Shown here: positions 4,317 through 64,000 of the stretch, one piece after another
Layout of the letters: every line of letters starts with the position of its first letter
Position numbering within the stretch: the stretch's first letter is position 1
NCBI GenBank assembly: GCA_901457705.2
Contig: LR590083.2
Coordinates: forward strand, 1,860,597 to 1,924,596
Source: Beijerinckiaceae bacterium RH AL1
GTDB taxonomy: Bacteria > Pseudomonadota > Alphaproteobacteria > Rhizobiales > Beijerinckiaceae
DNA: 64,000 nucleotides
Direction of reading: 5' to 3'
Program-made: the position numbers and the translations under genes
Notes under the pieces: generated by a model
The model's database searches: none
What the model saw: the letters and a program-made list of their open reading frames with translations, nothing else
Told to the model about the DNA's origin: nothing

Positions 4317-4796
4317 ATGGCCGAGACCCTCTCCTCGCTTCAAGACCTCAAGGGCGCCGGCGCCTCGCCGCAGCCCGAAGCGCCGGTCCATGTGCAGAAG
4401 CTCGACAAGCTCGGCCGCGCCTATGCCACCGGCAAGCGCAAGGACGCCGTCGCTCGCGTCTGGATCAAGCCCGGCTCCGGCAAGATCGAGGTCAACGGCA
4501 AGTCGTTCGAGGCCTATTTCGCCCGCCCCGTGCTGCGGATGATCCTGCAGCAGCCGCTCGGCATCACGAGCCGCGTCGGCCAGTACGACCTGCTGGTCAA
4601 CGTGTCGGGCGGCGGCCTCTCCGGCCAGGCCGGCGCGGTGCGCCACGGCTTGTCGAAGGCGCTCACTTACTACGAGCCGGACCTGCGGCCTATCCTTAAG
4701 AAGGAAGGCTTCCTCACCCGCGACTCGCGCGTCGTCGAGCGTAAGAAGTACGGCAAGAAGAAAGCCCGCCGCTCGTTCCAGTTCTCCAAGCGCTAA
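4317..4796 (+). CDS. rpsI: 30S ribosomal protein S9
   Basis: A 159-residue S9, a small-subunit protein whose C-terminal tail reaches the P-site tRNA. Seen: [21 protein letters not shown], the [23 protein letters not shown] core and the invariant basic tail ending SFQFSKR. The ~30-residue N-terminal extension before the core is typical of alphaproteobacteria. It is co-transcribed with rplM and is followed by a strong terminator. Confidence 0.98.
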
Positions 4797-4822
4797 GCCT
4801 GGATCAACACGCACACAGAAAA

Positions 4823-4846
4823 GGGCGGCTTCGGCCGCCCTTTTTT
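4823..4846 (+). terminator. Strong intrinsic terminator of rplM-rpsI
   Basis: A GC stem GGGCGGC/GCCGCCC closed by a short TTCG-type loop (4823-4840) is followed by six T residues (4841-4846), 27 bp after the rpsI stop. It is a textbook rho-independent terminator. Confidence 0.92.
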
Positions 4847-4891
4847 GTTGCCCACTAATCTTCGCGTTCTCGCCGACGCCGCTCGGCGACC

Positions 4892-5332
4892 TCAGTTCGT
4901 CGCGGCGGCCTTGGCGCGGTGGATCTTCGCCTTGCCCTTGCCGCCGCCGCCGACGCGCGCCTCGTTGTGGGCGATCGCCGCTTCCATCTCCGCCTTCAGG
5001 TCGTCGATTCCGGCGGCGTCGCGCGGGGTCGGCCGCACGGGGTCGGGCCCCAGCTGGCTCTGCAGCGGCGTGTACTTGAGCGTCTTCTTGTCGGGACGCG
5101 TCTCCTTCACGAAGTCCTGCGCCTCGGGCACGTCCGCGTGCAGACGAAACTGCATGATCGTCGCGAGCGGCGACTGATAGGGGTCGAACTTGTGGCGCTT
5201 CGGCTTGTTGACCGTAGGCTCCTCGGGGGCCGCGGCGGGCGCCGGGCTCGGTGGCGCGGTCTGAGCGACCGCCGCGCCGGCGGCGCCCGAGAGGGCAAGC
5301 CCGAGAAAGATCGCACGGAAGTCCAAGCGCAA
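4892..5332 (-). CDS. Secreted hypothetical protein
   Basis: A 146-residue protein with a clear signal peptide (hydrophobic IFLGLALSGAAGAAVAQ, cleavage probably after AVAQ or VAQT), then a Pro/Ala linker (~25-40) and a globular part with FDPYQSPLATIMQFRLHADVP. The tail is Gly/Lys-rich. I do not recognise the family. It is likely periplasmic. It runs divergently from phaC, with ~110 bp between the two starts, and convergently towards the rpsI terminator. Confidence 0.65.
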   Translation of the reverse strand: MRLDFRAIFLGLALSGAAGAAVAQTAPPSPAPAAAPEEPTVNKPKRHKFDPYQSPLATIMQFRLHADVPEAQDFVKETRPDKKTLKYTPLQSQLGPDPVRPTPRDAAGIDDLKAEMEAAIAHNEARVGGGGKGKAKIHRAKAAATN

Positions 5333-5440
5333 GAGATTCCATCCTGTCGAAAGGCCCGGGCCACCGGGTCGCGCGACTGAGATAGTCTCGTTTTATGACC
5401 GAAGCGGGACCTCGAGCCCGCCACCCAGGGAGGATATGGC

Positions 5441-7435
5441 ATGACGTCGTCGGCGCATCCGGACGATGCGAAGCCTGCCGACGCGCAGGCCTTTCCGAAC
5501 GCTTTTCCGACCGCCTTCGCGCAGCAGGCCGCCGCTCAGCAGGCGGCCGCGCAGGAAGCCTTCGCGAAGGCGCTGGCGAGCAACCCGCTGGCCCAGGGCT
5601 TGGCGCAGGCCCCGATGGCGGCGCTCGGCGCGATGAGCGGCGAGCAGGCGCCGCCGCCGCCCGACATCGAGCGGCTGGCGACGAACGCCGCCCGCTTCAT
5701 CGAGCAGGGCGGCCGCGCGCTCGCCGCCTACATGCAGCCCTACCAGAAGGGCGATGCCGGCGAGATCCAGCGCAACGACTTTTCCGATCTCGTCGCGGTC
5801 GCGCTGACCTCGATCGGCCGCGTCGCCGAGCATTGGACCAGTGACCCGGCGCGCCTCGCCGAGGCGCAGGCCGCGATCGCGACGCCGTTCCTGCAGCTCT
5901 GGGCGCAGACCTACCGCCGGATGCTGGGCGAGAAGGTCGAGCCCGTCGTGCCGATCCCCAAGGGCGACAAGCGCTACACCGCGCCGGAGTGGTCGAACCT
6001 GCCGCTCTACGACTTCTTGCGCCAGGCCCACGCGATCAGCGCGGAGTGGGCCGAAAACCTCGTCGAACGGTCGACGGAACTCGATCCGCGCACCCGCGCC
6101 AAGGCCAAGTTCTACCTGCGCCAGATCGCGAGCGCGCTGGCGCCGGCGAACTTCATCGCCACCAATCCGGAGCTTTTGCGCCAGACGCTGCAGACCTCGG
6201 GCGAAAACCTGGCGCGCGGCGCGCTGCATCTGGCCGAGGACATGGAGGCGGGCGGCGGCCAGCTCCGCATCCGGCAGACCGACCCGTCGTCCTTCAAGTT
6301 CGGCGAGAATGTCGCCGCGACCCCGGGCCACGTCGTGTTCCGCAACGAGCTGATCGAGCTGATCCAGTACACGCCGACGACCGAGAGCGTGCTGCGCCGG
6401 CCGCTGCTGATCATCCCGCCGTGGATCAACAAGTTCTACATCATGGACCTGTCGGCCGAGAAAAGCCTCGTGCGCTGGGTGGTCGAGCAGGGCGTCACGG
6501 TCTTCATGGTCTCGTGGGTCAATCCCGACGAGCGCCACCGCGACAAGACGTTCGCCTCCTACATCCACGAGGGCATCTTCGCGGGGCTCGACGCGGTGAA
6601 GGCGGCCACCGGCGAGGATCGGGTCAACGCGATCGGCTACTGCGTCGGCGGCACGCTGCTCGCGACGGCGCTCGCCTACATGGCGCAGACCGGCGACGAG
6701 CGCATCCAGAGCGCCACCTTCTTCGCCGCGCAGACCGACTTCTCCGACGCCGGCGACATCCAGGTCTTCATCGACGAGGAGCAGCTGCGCGCGCTCGAGG
6801 CCAAGATGGAAGGCAAGGGCTACCTCGAAGGCGCCAAGATGGCGATGGCCTTCAACATGCTGCGCCCGAACGACCTCGTCTGGTCCTACTTCGTCGACAA
6901 CTACATGCGCGGCAAGACGCCGGCCCCGTTCGACCTGCTCTATTGGAACTCGGATTCGACGCGGCTGCCGATCCGCAACCACACCTACTACCTGCGGAAC
7001 TTCTACATCGACAACAAGCTCGCCAAGGGCGAGATGGAGATCGGCGGCATCAAGCTCGAGCTCGGCAAGGTGAAGGTCCCCGCCTATTTCGTCGCCGCCA
7101 AGGACGATCATATCGCGCCGGCCGCCTCGGTCTATCGCGGGGCGCGGCTGTTCGGCGGCGAGGTGCGCTACACGCTGGCCGGCTCCGGCCACATCGCCGG
7201 CATCATCAACCCGCCGATCAAGAACAAGTACTTCTACTCGACCGGGCCGAAGCCGCATGGCGAGCTGAAGGATTGGGTCCCGCAATCGGTGAAGCACGAC
7301 GGCAGCTGGTGGCCGGACTGGATGGCCTGGCTGATCGAGCAGGCGCCGGAGCGGGTCGAGGCCCGCGTCCCCGGTGCCGGCGGCCTGCCGGTGCTGGGCC
7401 CGGCCCCCGGCGAGTACGTGCGCGTCAAGAGCTGA
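5441..7435 (+). CDS. phaC: Class I polyhydroxyalkanoate synthase
   Basis: PhaC polymerises (R)-3-hydroxyacyl-CoA into storage polyester at granule surfaces. At 664 residues it is longer than the usual ~590 because of an N-terminal Ala/Gln-rich stretch (residues ~20-50). The lipase-like box GYCVGG puts the nucleophile at Cys401; the other triad members fit Asp555 or 556 (AAKDDHIAP) and His584 (GSGHIAG). ATG 5441 has a strong GGGAGGA ribosome site at ideal distance. No phaE or phaR partner is present, in line with class I. phaA, phaB and phasin genes are not in the window. Confidence 0.96.
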   Translation: MTSSAHPDDAKPADAQAFPNAFPTAFAQQAAAQQAAAQEAFAKALASNPLAQGLAQAPMAALGAMSGEQAPPPPDIERLATNAARFIEQGGRALAAYMQPYQKGDAGEIQRNDFSDLVAVALTSIGRVAEHWTSDPARLAEAQAAIATPFLQLWAQTYRRMLGEKVEPVVPIPKGDKRYTAPEWSNLPLYDFLRQAHAISAEWAENLVERSTELDPRTRAKAKFYLRQIASALAPANFIATNPELLRQTLQTSGENLARGALHLAEDMEAGGGQLRIRQTDPSSFKFGENVAATPGHVVFRNELIELIQYTPTTESVLRRPLLIIPPWINKFYIMDLSAEKSLVRWVVEQGVTVFMVSWVNPDERHRDKTFASYIHEGIFAGLDAVKAATGEDRVNAIGYCVGGTLLATALAYMAQTGDERIQSATFFAAQTDFSDAGDIQVFIDEEQLRALEAKMEGKGYLEGAKMAMAFNMLRPNDLVWSYFVDNYMRGKTPAPFDLLYWNSDSTRLPIRNHTYYLRNFYIDNKLAKGEMEIGGIKLELGKVKVPAYFVAAKDDHIAPAASVYRGARLFGGEVRYTLAGSGHIAGIINPPIKNKYFYSTGPKPHGELKDWVPQSVKHDGSWWPDWMAWLIEQAPERVEARVPGAGGLPVLGPAPGEYVRVKS

Positions 7436-7531
7436 CGGAACGGATGGTCTTATCCGCAACCATCCCTTGACGCGGCCGCCTTCGCTGCCTCACGTGCGTG
7501 CCGCTAAGCTCGCACGGAAAGAGTCAACGAA

Positions 7532-8380
7532 ATGAAGCTGGTACGCTACGGGGCCGAGGGCCGGGAAAAGCCGGGCCTTATCGACATGGACGGCCGCGTC
7601 CGCGACCTCTCGGCGATCGTCGACGACATCGACGGGCACGCGCTGTCGCCGAAGATGCTGGCCCACATCGCCCGCGCCCGGGTGTCGAGCCTGCCGCTGG
7701 TGCGCGGCAAGCCGCGGCTCGGCGCGTGCGTCGCGTGGCCGGTCAACTTCATCGGCATCGGCCTCAACTACACCGACCATGCGGCGGAGATCGGCATGGA
7801 CCTGCCGACCGAGCCGGTGATCTTCCAGAAGGCGTCGAACTGCGTCTGCGGCGCCAACGATCCGATCCTTATGCCGAAACAGGCCGAGCGGCTCGACTGG
7901 GAGGTCGAGGTCGGCATCGTCATCGGCACGCAGGCCCACAACGTCTCCGAGCGCGCCGCGATGGATCACGTCGCCGGCTTCTGCCTCGCCAACGATCTCT
8001 CCGAGCGCGGCTGGCAGCTCGACCGCGGCGGCGCCTGGACCAAGGGCAAGAGCGCGCCGTCCTTCGGCCCGCTCGGCCCCTGGATGGTGACGAAGGACGA
8101 GATCGCCCAGCCGCAGCGCCTCGGTCTCTGGCTCGATGTCAACGGCGAGCGCCTGCAGGACGGCACGACGAAGAACATGGTCTTCACGATGAAGACGATC
8201 GTCTCCTACGTCTCGCGCTTCTTCGTGCTGGAGCCGGGCGACGTCATCGTCACCGGGACGCCGGCCGGCGTCGGGCAGGGCATGCACCCGAAGCGCTTCC
8301 TCAAGGCCGGCGACATCGTCACGCTCGGCGCCGACGGTCTCGGCGAGCAGCATCACGAGGTGGTCGCGATCAAGCGCTGA
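7532..8380 (+). CDS. Fumarylacetoacetate hydrolase family protein
   Basis: A 282-residue FAH-fold enzyme; the family cleaves or hydrates C-C bonds in 2-oxo acid substrates using a divalent metal. Seen: NFIGIGLNYTDHAAEIG, the metal-ligand block DWEVEVGIVIG, and PGDVIVTGTPAGVGQG near the C-terminus. The sequence resembles ureidoglycolate lyase-like or 2,4-diketo-3-deoxy-fuconate hydrolase-like members, but substrate cannot be told. The next gene is a cupin protein 54 bp downstream on the same strand, which suggests a two-gene operon. Confidence 0.88.
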   Translation: MKLVRYGAEGREKPGLIDMDGRVRDLSAIVDDIDGHALSPKMLAHIARARVSSLPLVRGKPRLGACVAWPVNFIGIGLNYTDHAAEIGMDLPTEPVIFQKASNCVCGANDPILMPKQAERLDWEVEVGIVIGTQAHNVSERAAMDHVAGFCLANDLSERGWQLDRGGAWTKGKSAPSFGPLGPWMVTKDEIAQPQRLGLWLDVNGERLQDGTTKNMVFTMKTIVSYVSRFFVLEPGDVIVTGTPAGVGQGMHPKRFLKAGDIVTLGADGLGEQHHEVVAIKR

Positions 8381-8434
8381 TCACGGGCGTGACGCGCCTC
8401 GCTCACGCCTTCGCGCCTGGGAGGAACGACCAAG

Positions 8435-8887
8435 ATGCCGAAGATCGACCTCGCCGCGGTGCCCGTCGCCAAGGGCTCCGGCTACCCACCTGCCTTCGCC
8501 GCTCCCTGCGCCGAGCGCACGCGGCAGCGGCTCGGCAAGGCCGGCGGCCTCGGCGACTTCGGCGTCAATCTCATGCGCCTGCCGCCGGGCGGCTGGTCGA
8601 GCCAGCGGCACTGGCACTCGCATGAGGACGAGCTCGTCTACGTGCTGGAGGGCGAGCTCGTGCTCGTCGAGGACGACGGTGAGACCCCGTTGCGGGCAGG
8701 CGACTGCGCGGCGTTCCCGAAGAACAGCGGCAACGGCCACCACCTCATCAACCGGTCCGCGGCGACCGCGACGTATCTCGAGGTCGGCTCGCGCTCGCCC
8801 GTCGACGTGATCACCTGCTCGGACATCGACATGATGAGCCCGTCGACAGACGGCCGCTTCCTGCACAAGGACGGCACGCCGTACTGA
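8435..8887 (+). CDS. Cupin domain protein
   Basis: A 150-residue single-domain cupin. The metal-binding pattern HWHSHEDELVYVLEGELVLVEDDGE (His residues ~66-70, Glu ~74) and the second motif NGHHLINRS are intact, so it probably holds a metal. A GGGAGGA ribosome site precedes ATG 8435. It follows the FAH-family gene closely and may act on the same pathway; the substrate is unknown. Confidence 0.85.
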   Translation: MPKIDLAAVPVAKGSGYPPAFAAPCAERTRQRLGKAGGLGDFGVNLMRLPPGGWSSQRHWHSHEDELVYVLEGELVLVEDDGETPLRAGDCAAFPKNSGNGHHLINRSAATATYLEVGSRSPVDVITCSDIDMMSPSTDGRFLHKDGTPY

Positions 8888-62273: not shown

Positions 62274-62522
62274 ATGATGTTGCAGACTATCCGAGCCCTT
62301 ATCGCCGACCATGGCCGGCTTCCCGTCGCCGTCGAGACGCTGTCGAACGGCCAGGATCTCTACGCCGCCGGTCTCACGTCGTTTGCGGCCGTGCAGCTGA
62401 TGCTCGCTCTCGAGGACGCGTTCGACGTCGAGTTTCCGGAGCAGATGCTGAACCGTCGCTCGTTTGCGAGCATCGACGCGATCGCCGGCTGCCTCCAGCA
62501 GCTCGTGCCGGAGGCGGCATGA
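62274..62522 (+). CDS. Acyl carrier protein-like carrier protein
   Basis: An 82-residue carrier domain: MMLQTIRALIADHGRL, then LSNGQDLYAAGLTSFAAVQLMLALEDAFDVEFPEQML. The Ser of AAGLTS is the expected phosphopantetheine site (usual DSL/GLTS motif). GGAGG precedes the ATG pair at 62274. It overlaps the next gene by ATGA. By position next to an amino acid:CP ligase it is most likely the aminoacyl carrier protein of that pair. Confidence 0.88.
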   Translation: MMLQTIRALIADHGRLPVAVETLSNGQDLYAAGLTSFAAVQLMLALEDAFDVEFPEQMLNRRSFASIDAIAGCLQQLVPEAA

Positions 62523-63706
62523 TGACCGTCCAGACGACCGCCGACAGTGGCAAGAAGCTCGCCGAGCGTGGCGCCGAGGCGGCCGCGATCGCCGCCAGGC
62601 ACGCCGGCGACGTCGACGCGAACCGGCGCTTCCCGCGCGAGGCGATCGACGCGATGAAGCAGGGGCGCCTTCTCGGCGCGATGATCCCCGTCGATCTCGG
62701 CGGCGAAGGCGCGAGCCTCGCCGACATCGCCGAGATCTGCTCGCTGCTTGGCCAGCAGTGCTCCTCGGCCGGCATGGTCTACGCGATGCACCAGATCCAG
62801 GTGTCGAGCCTCGCGCTGCACGCGCAGACGAGCGAGTGGCACCGCACCTTCCTGCGCCGCGTCGCCGAGGAGCAGCTGCTGCTCGCCTCCGCGACGTCGG
62901 AGGCCGGCGTCGGCGGCGACCTGCGCACCTCGCTCTGCGCCGTCGAGCGCGACGGCGACACCTACCATCTCGAGAAGAACGCCTCGGTCATCTCGTATGG
63001 CCAGGACGCCGACGCGATCCTCGCAACGGCGCGCCGCGAGCCGGACTCGCCGACCTCCGACCAGGTGCTGGTCGTGGTGATGAAGGAGCACTGCTGGCTT
63101 GAGCGCACGACCCAGTGGGACACGCTGGGCATGCGCGGCACCTGCTCGGAGGGCTTCAAGCTGAAGGCGACGGGGCCCGCCTCGCACATCCTGCCGAAGC
63201 CGTTCGCCGAGATCGCCGCGCATTCGATGCTCGCGACCTCGCACCTCCTCTGGGCGTCGCTTTGGTACGGCATCGCGCTCTCGGCGGTGCACAAGGCGCA
63301 GGCCTTCGTGCGGGCCGAGGCGCGCAAGAAGCCGAACGAGAAGCCGACCGGCGCGATCCGCATCGCCGAGGCCGCAAGCCAGCTGCAGATGATGAAGTCG
63401 ATGGCCCGCGACGGGCTCAACCGCTACGAGACGGCGCAGGCCGATGCCGACGAGCTGACCTCGGTCGGCTTCGCGGTGGCGATGAACAACGTCAAGGTCG
63501 CGACGTCGCAGATCGCGATCGACATCGTCAACAAGGCGATGATCGTCTGCGGCATCGCCGGCTTCCGGAACGACACGCCCTACTCTCTCGGCCGTCAGTT
63601 CCGCGACATCCTCTCGGCGCAGGTCATGATCAACAACGACCGCATATTCGGCAACACGTCGAACCTGCTGCTCGTGCATCGGCTCGACAACCGCCTCGTC
63701 GCCTGA
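62519..63706 (+). CDS. Acyl-CoA dehydrogenase family protein
   Basis: A 395-residue protein of the acyl-CoA dehydrogenase flavoprotein fold: N-terminal helices (FPREAIDAMKQGRLLGAMIPVDLGGEGASLADIAEICSLLGQQCSSAG), a beta-domain with LASATSEAGVGGDLRTS and MRGTCSEGFKLKA, and a C-terminal helical domain (CGIAGFRNDTPYSLGRQFRDILSAQVMINNDRIFGNTSNLL). It is coupled to the carrier protein by an ATGA overlap, so it may oxidise an amino acid held on that carrier; this is inference. Confidence 0.88.
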   Translation: MMTVQTTADSGKKLAERGAEAAAIAARHAGDVDANRRFPREAIDAMKQGRLLGAMIPVDLGGEGASLADIAEICSLLGQQCSSAGMVYAMHQIQVSSLALHAQTSEWHRTFLRRVAEEQLLLASATSEAGVGGDLRTSLCAVERDGDTYHLEKNASVISYGQDADAILATARREPDSPTSDQVLVVVMKEHCWLERTTQWDTLGMRGTCSEGFKLKATGPASHILPKPFAEIAAHSMLATSHLLWASLWYGIALSAVHKAQAFVRAEARKKPNEKPTGAIRIAEAASQLQMMKSMARDGLNRYETAQADADELTSVGFAVAMNNVKVATSQIAIDIVNKAMIVCGIAGFRNDTPYSLGRQFRDILSAQVMINNDRIFGNTSNLLLVHRLDNRLVA

Positions 63707-63760
63707 GCGGCGCGACGCGCGAGACCAAACCTTTTTTGCAAGCGAAAGCGAGCCCTTGCC

Positions 63761-64000
63761 ATGTGCATGGTGTGCGGTGATTTCCTGGACGGCCTCATGA
63801 CGAAGGGGCTCTTGTTCGACATGGGCGTGCCCGGCCTCTACGGCCGCTCCGGCACGTTCGAGGACGTGGTCGAGCGCTTGACCGCGTTGATCACCCGCCT
63901 CGGCGCCGACGCCAAGCCCGAGGTGCTGCGCTTCCCGCCCGGCATGAACCGGGTCGACCTCGAGCGCTCGGGCTACCTCAAGAACTTCCCGGACATGGCG
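63761..64000 (+). CDS. Amino acid--[carrier protein] ligase, N-terminal part (runs off the right edge)
   Basis: The open frame begins at ATG 63761 (MCMVCGDFLDGLMTKG) and is uncut to the window end, 80 codons. Seen: VPGLYGRSGTFEDVVERLTALI, PEVLRFPPGMNR and LERSGYLKNFPDMA. From memory these match the class II synthetase-like aa:CP ligases of Bradyrhizobium (Bll0957) and Agrobacterium (Atu2573), seryl-tRNA synthetase homologues that load Gly or Ala on a carrier protein instead of tRNA. The Met at residue 13 is another possible start. Confidence 0.8.
   Translation, partial: MCMVCGDFLDGLMTKGLLFDMGVPGLYGRSGTFEDVVERLTALITRLGADAKPEVLRFPPGMNRVDLERSGYLKNFPDMA

Follow-up and report, generated by a model that had tools for sequence, protein, structure and literature searches.

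A conserved five-gene operon of Beijerinckiaceae bacterium RH AL1 as a candidate carrier-protein-based aminoacyl transfer pathway

The window analysed here, a stretch of 64,000 nucleotides (G000:C1:1860597-1924596) from the 4.35-Mb genome of Beijerinckiaceae bacterium RH AL1, ends within a compact operon of five genes on the + strand. These encode, in order, an aminoacyl carrier protein (CP), an ACAD-like flavoprotein, an amino acid:[carrier protein] ligase, a DUF1839 protein and a GH2 glycosidase. All three features described in the window by an earlier note on this DNA were found again, including the ATGA overlap of the CP gene with an acyl-CoA dehydrogenase-type gene, whose product scores above cut-off for both the N- and C-terminal Acyl-CoA_dh domains of Pfam. 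The ligase had been placed 55 bp further on; its ATG at 63761 was confirmed, and the spacing after the flavoprotein stop codon is 54 bases. The remaining operon, expected past the window, was read from the same contig (locus L005; window position = L005 position + 59403) and comprises the DUF1839 and GH2 genes. The features are the following, with L005 coordinates in brackets:

62274..62522, + strand (2871/2874-3119): CP gene, 82 aa from ATG 62274 or 81 aa from the in-frame ATG 62277; stop codon 62520-62522
62379..62381, + strand: Ser35 codon TCG of the CP, in DLYAAGLTSF; expected phosphopantetheine site, from the sequence and the alignment to the Atu2571 serine
62519..63706, + strand (3116/3119-4303): ACAD-superfamily flavoprotein gene, from ATG 62519 or 62522; ATGA overlap with the CP gene
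63242..63244, + strand: His241 codon of the flavoprotein, family-invariant, adjoining the IVD-type catalytic Glu position
63629..63631, + strand: Ile370 codon of the flavoprotein (numbered from 62522), at the MCAD-type catalytic Glu position
63761..64000, + strand (4358-5269 for the whole gene): first 80 codons of the ligase, 303 aa in full, ending at window-equivalent 64672
Window-equivalent 64680-65654, past the window end, + strand (5277-6251): DUF1839 gene, from its ORF and family match
Window-equivalent 65694-68114, past the window end, + strand (6291-8711): GH2 glycosidase gene, from its ORF and family match

The CP gene is preceded by genes for an ABC-transporter substrate-binding protein and an Mrp-type ATPase, and the GH2 gene is followed by a DedA-type gene on the opposite strand (names read off the translations). 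An NRPS cluster was considered and rejected, as the operon is without adenylation or condensation domains.

The CP matches NF005480 (PRK07081) with 110 bits against a cut-off of 72, and the PP-binding family PF00550 with 33 bits. Its closest solved relative is Atu2571 (4h2w_C, E 2e-23), with whose corresponding serine Ser35 aligns, and phosphopantetheine would be attached at this residue. The ligase matches NF005479 (PRK07080) with 483 bits (cut-off 357), and both family matches agree with the earlier assignment of a ligase accompanied by a cognate-type carrier; its nearest solved relative is Bll0957 (phmmer E 9e-97). The protein consists of a catalytic core only, without a tRNA-binding domain, and the CP gene lies two genes upstream. 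The earlier reading depended on class II motifs 2 and 3 being encoded in the remainder of the ligase gene. Both are present (FRNEPSRDPDRMQMFRQRE and GFGMERLTLAMF, respectively), with key residues that do not vary across an alignment of 11 sequences (R150, E152, F163, R164, R166, E167, G272-G274, E276 and R277), and with these motifs intact a broken ligase was rejected. Also invariant in the same 11 sequences are C122, E167 and C270, which we take to be the counterparts of the Cys, Glu and Cys that bind zinc in atypical SerRS. One stretch of the ligase, GRAGRMLKASQRDQELKFE, resembles not native Bll0957 but the variant ligase solved with an Atu2571-type carrier (4h2w), a variant reportedly engineered towards Agrobacterium.

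The ligases Atu2573 and Bll0957 with the carrier Atu2571 have reportedly been characterised by Mocibob (2010, 2013), and the substrate of the characterised relatives is glycine. The present operon shares the ligase and CP families of these systems and, in one carrier-specific stretch, the Atu type, but its sequences are clearly diverged and come from another organism. Its gene content equals that of the Agrobacterium gene set implied by PMC2922099. Since 2010 no biological role has been assigned to amino acid:[carrier protein] ligases, and a 2022 review still called their role unknown (PMC9437257).

The ligase alignment, scanned against 84,980 species genomes, confirmed 547 relatives, and 80 loci among the matches listed were compared. 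Exactly the order CP, flavoprotein, ligase, DUF1839, GH2, with all genes on the same strand, is shown by 69 of these 80 loci, all from other genomes, which led us to reject a chance neighbourhood. The 11 inexact loci comprise two in which a stray hit accompanies the five genes, three with frameshifts, the Vineibacter and Reyranella loci without GH2, one with CP and ligase only, and otherwise operons cut by contig ends. The five-gene order was seen in Hyphomicrobiales, Azospirillum, Burkholderiales and others, so that the conservation across Hyphomicrobiales sought by the earlier note extends beyond that order. At L082, L095 and L107 the gene for the flavoprotein, for DUF1839 or for GH2 appears frameshifted or truncated, through either decay or sequencing error.

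Among 299 genomes of the phylum, the ligase scores above cut-off in 21. The operon described here, type A, is present in 12 of the 299, and DUF1839 occurs in exactly those 12. The other nine carry a type B set without DUF1839, which has a flavoprotein of its own and a Bll0957-like ligase; a divergent CP is usual in it, and a GNAT-like gene frequent. The genome of the window carries both types, its type B ligase (L006:7395-8309, 450 bits) lying about 60 kb from the other type B genes (L007:2207-6642), at about 3.127 and 3.19 Mb of G000:C1; the latter encode a carrier, a flavoprotein, a GNAT-like protein and an acyl-CoA-synthetase-like enzyme. In the type B sets of relatives the carrier, flavoprotein, ligase and GNAT-like genes adjoin, and the GNAT-like protein may be the transferase of this type. 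In a phaR mutant of Bradyrhizobium diazoefficiens the type B ligase gene bll0957 and its flavoprotein neighbour bll0958 change three-fold (PMC10888616). More distant relatives of the ligase from other classes of the phylum (L058-L067), most of about 400 aa and scoring 100-175 bits, have no carrier or DUF1839 gene nearby.

The flavoprotein has the three-domain fold of the ACAD superfamily. PF02771, PF08028 and PF00441 are above cut-off and the middle domain is under its Pfam cut-off; the structural model (pLDDT 92) resembles acyl-CoA dehydrogenases and flavin monooxygenases alike, and a fold search did not separate the two (Z 39-42 for both). Class D flavin monooxygenases such as DszC, MsuC and KijD3 (Z 39-41) possess the ACAD fold without the catalytic Glu, and oxygenate in dependence on reduced flavin. 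Alignment with four dehydrogenases of the same genome, all of which keep the Glu of the MCAD-type YEG motif, revealed that this residue is missing from the flavoprotein; the sequence there is M-I-N-N, and its Ile370 is nearly invariant among 41 type A relatives. The IVD-type Glu is likewise missing from these 41 sequences, which have a variable small residue at that position followed by His241, invariant among them and also across types A and B together. In the tree, the flavoproteins of both types form a single clade (100/100) on a long branch, apart from the dehydrogenases; the nitrososynthase KijD3 appears as its neighbour, a weak placement among long branches.

Since the catalytic Glu is absent at both known positions, the flavoprotein fails one defining feature of acyl-CoA dehydrogenases; simple dehydrogenation is thereby left unsupported and oxygenation slightly favoured. 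The proposal of the earlier note, that a dehydrogenase oxidises the carrier-bound aminoacyl group, can accordingly be kept in part: the flavoprotein likely acts on that group, but with both Glu missing the name dehydrogenase is not sustained. We give about even chances to an oxygenation of the group, for example on its nitrogen, which is a little likelier than dehydrogenation; dehydrogenation using another base would be about as likely. In its plain form, dehydrogenation would convert the carrier-bound amino acid into an imino- or dehydro-aminoacyl thioester, either as an endpoint or for later transfer, and we regard this as a serious possibility of somewhat less than even probability. RedW, PigA and ColB1 are precedents for such chemistry, and the ACAD-superfamily fold of the flavoprotein compares well both with true dehydrogenases (Z 41-42) and with ColB1, which dehydrogenates an assembly-line-tethered cysteine (Z 40.8). 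Distant matches to the RedW and MbtN models of carrier-protein dehydrogenases point the same way, but all dehydrogenase model matches are far under their cut-offs, and both the empty glutamate positions, filled in the dehydrogenases of the same genome, and the separate long-branched clade argue against this reading.

The DUF1839 protein (PF08893, 393 bits) yielded a structural model (pLDDT 93, pTM 0.91) built from 39 relatives. A search of PDB sequences gave no matches, and the only Foldseek matches with E < 1e-3 were AziU3/U2, CtaG and CcbD. In VIA-align comparisons the model matches CcbD with Z 18.3 (rmsd 3.6, 277/311 residues), AziU3 with Z 16.8 and CtaG with Z 16.2, while the next fold, that of papain-like peptidases, reaches a Z of at most 6.6. 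As far as we found, this structural identification of DUF1839 with CcbD, CtaG and AziU3 is new support for its function. Cys27, His122, Lys124 and His143 are invariant in the 39 relatives. Profile comparison with BtrH_N gave a weak match (probability 2.6%, with E 0.018 for a single comparison); in this alignment Cys27 and His122 pair with the Cys and His of BtrH, and the acid position of the Cys-His-acid triad falls on His143-Asn144. CtaG and AziU3 illustrate that the same fold also serves non-sugar acceptors, a diamine in the case of CtaG, or works without an acceptor.

DUF1839 had earlier been recognised as papain-like, a C-(T/S)-H site being suggested for it along with a guess at acyl-CoA-dependent work on glycans, and the papain-like BtrH is an acyl carrier protein:aminoglycoside acyltransferase (PMC10318531). 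DUF1839 resembles BtrH (butirosin) and CtaG (closthioamide), papain-like enzymes of carrier-protein pathways; the acceptor of BtrH is an aminoglycoside. CcbD binds CP-tethered proline to its own Cys as a thioester, from which the amine of a thiooctose sugar receives it (PMC12945683). Because CcbD, a full-length fold match, moves a carrier-bound aminoacyl group onto a sugar amine, DUF1839 probably provides the transfer step. That it moves a group off the carrier we consider very probable, and its fold, residues and neighbours together suggest an aminoacyltransferase. A close parallel is the lincosamide synthetase CcbC/CcbZ-CP/CcbD, in which a carrier-loaded amino acid likewise reaches a sugar amine through a Cys enzyme of the same fold (PMC12945683, PMC4351081). 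This system differs, however, in employing an adenylation-domain enzyme rather than a synthetase-like ligase, in having no such flavoprotein at this step, and in making an antibiotic. A second DUF1839 copy was observed in one genome, at a contig end (G255:C159:127-1047).

The GH2 protein scores above cut-off for PF22666, and its best solved relative is the beta-mannosidase 5n6u (E 1e-46). Both catalytic Glu are invariant (E395 and E476 in alignment A6). Inspection of the translation gave no evident signal peptide, which suggests a cytoplasmic role, and the few loci without GH2, those of Vineibacter and Reyranella, suggest that the enzyme is dispensable for the chemistry. The usual sixth gene, present in 58 of the 80 loci listed (e.g. 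L068:4816-6594), encodes a protein of about 590 aa with two alpha/beta hydrolase units in tandem; it resembles exosortase A-associated hydrolases 1 and 2 fused, with scores under their cut-offs.

Many copies of the operon lie among polysaccharide genes. At least one of Wzz, a bacterial sugar transferase, a flippase and an O-antigen-ligase-type protein is encoded at 37 of the 67 full-length loci among the matches listed, as against one of 40 stretches of 20 kb taken at random from related genomes (Fisher p 4e-9, kinship being ignored), and by record titles the link spans about 17 genera. In a Shinella sp., for example, GumC, an O-antigen ligase and a cellulase-family gene lie a few genes upstream. 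About 45% of the full-length loci listed are not in a polysaccharide locus, and the copy in the window has no polysaccharide-gene neighbours at its locus.

We propose the following pathway. The class II synthetase-like ligase would activate a small amino acid, possibly glycine as in its characterised relatives, and load it on the phosphopantetheine arm of the CP, where the flavoprotein would oxidise the aminoacyl group. DUF1839, as a cysteine acyltransferase of the CcbD/CtaG/BtrH fold, would then accept the carrier-bound aminoacyl group on its own cysteine and hand it to an amine. The likeliest bearer of this amine is an amino sugar or other glycan precursor, perhaps a surface sugar, and GH2 may afterwards trim or release the glycoside. 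Sequence and structure prediction speak for the five genes with their conservation, the family of each protein, the DUF1839 fold, the lost glutamates and the polysaccharide link; the identities of the amino acid, redox product and acceptor, as well as the role of GH2, we infer. The full model of carrier-protein-based aminoacyl transfer, with a sugar-type amine as acceptor, seems to us the favoured reading, held with moderate confidence. Its more specific form, a widespread surface modification in which an exopolysaccharide or amino-sugar precursor is decorated with oxidised (e.g. N-hydroxylated) glycine by way of CP, ligase and DUF1839, is tentative. The small amino-acid modification route of the earlier note is supported as regards ligase and CP and a flavoprotein likely to act on the carrier-bound group, but is incomplete, as DUF1839, with the fold of a carrier-protein:amine acyltransferase, and GH2 follow. 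Envelope glycylation and alanylation by AlmEFG and Dlt likewise combine a ligase, a carrier protein and transfer to an envelope molecule; these systems differ in ligase fold, in their membrane transferases and in leaving the amino acid unoxidised.

Alternatively, the product of the operon could be small and diffusible, an aminoacyl amide made on the carrier and acting, for example, as antibiotic or signal, to which the closeness of polysaccharide genes would be incidental. In its favour, antibiotic biosynthesis is the setting of CcbD, CtaG, AziU3 and BtrH alike, nearly half of the loci listed, among them that of the window, lie away from polysaccharide genes, and some copies adjoin nif genes on rhizobial plasmids. 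Against this stand the recurrence of the polysaccharide link across genera, the resemblance of the usual sixth gene to exosortase/polysaccharide-associated hydrolases, and a conserved operon without an export or resistance gene in the loci listed; we therefore judge a diffusible product rather unlikely. Ordinary fatty-acid type metabolism, with an acyl carrier protein and an acyl-CoA dehydrogenase by chance near a tRNA-synthetase fragment, would suit the generic annotation of the first two genes but is ruled out for practical purposes by the conserved operon with its fixed gene order, the match of CP and ligase to dedicated aminoacyl families, and the lost dehydrogenase glutamates.

The proposed transfer to a sugar amine has a precedent. 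In a note in proof, Iyer et al. 2010 (PMC2922099) listed an ACP, a redox enzyme, Atu2574, a glycosidase and polysaccharide genes as neighbours of the Mocibob ligase, and proposed that an amino acid, modified 'probably via monoxygenation', is linked by Atu2574, through an amide, to an amine on a sugar of the cell surface. The position of Atu2574 next to Atu2571-2573 identifies it as the DUF1839 gene. The present operon is a new example of the kind then predicted, with the same genes and the same proposal, at which the two analyses arrived independently. The 2010 prediction rested on gene-neighbour inference; beyond it go the match of DUF1839 to CcbD, CtaG and AziU3, the lost dehydrogenase glutamates, and the counts with a random control. 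The downstream pathway, which the earlier note called not known, had therefore been predicted, and the remark is right as regards experiment: the literature searched contained no experiment on the predicted pathway and, besides the 2010 prediction, mentioned the locus tags of the operon only in passing. Should DUF1839 prove to be the transferase, five genes would cover the whole way from ligase to product, and the route could be rebuilt with purified proteins. The model, if true, would tie a synthetase relative to the surface chemistry of plant- and soil-associated bacteria, including the plasmid copies after nif genes in nodule isolates.

In Rhizobium gallicum, R. acidisoli and Rhizobium sp. 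C104 (L228, L232 and L235), conjugative plasmids of nodule isolates carry the type A operon directly after nif genes and a gene with the annotation of an exopolysaccharide-production repressor; a symbiotic role is possible there. On plasmid p3 of Rhizobium sp. NLR16a (L231), it follows efp, epmA and a lysine-2,3-aminomutase-like gene, a set that constitutes another synthetase-relative aminoacylation system.
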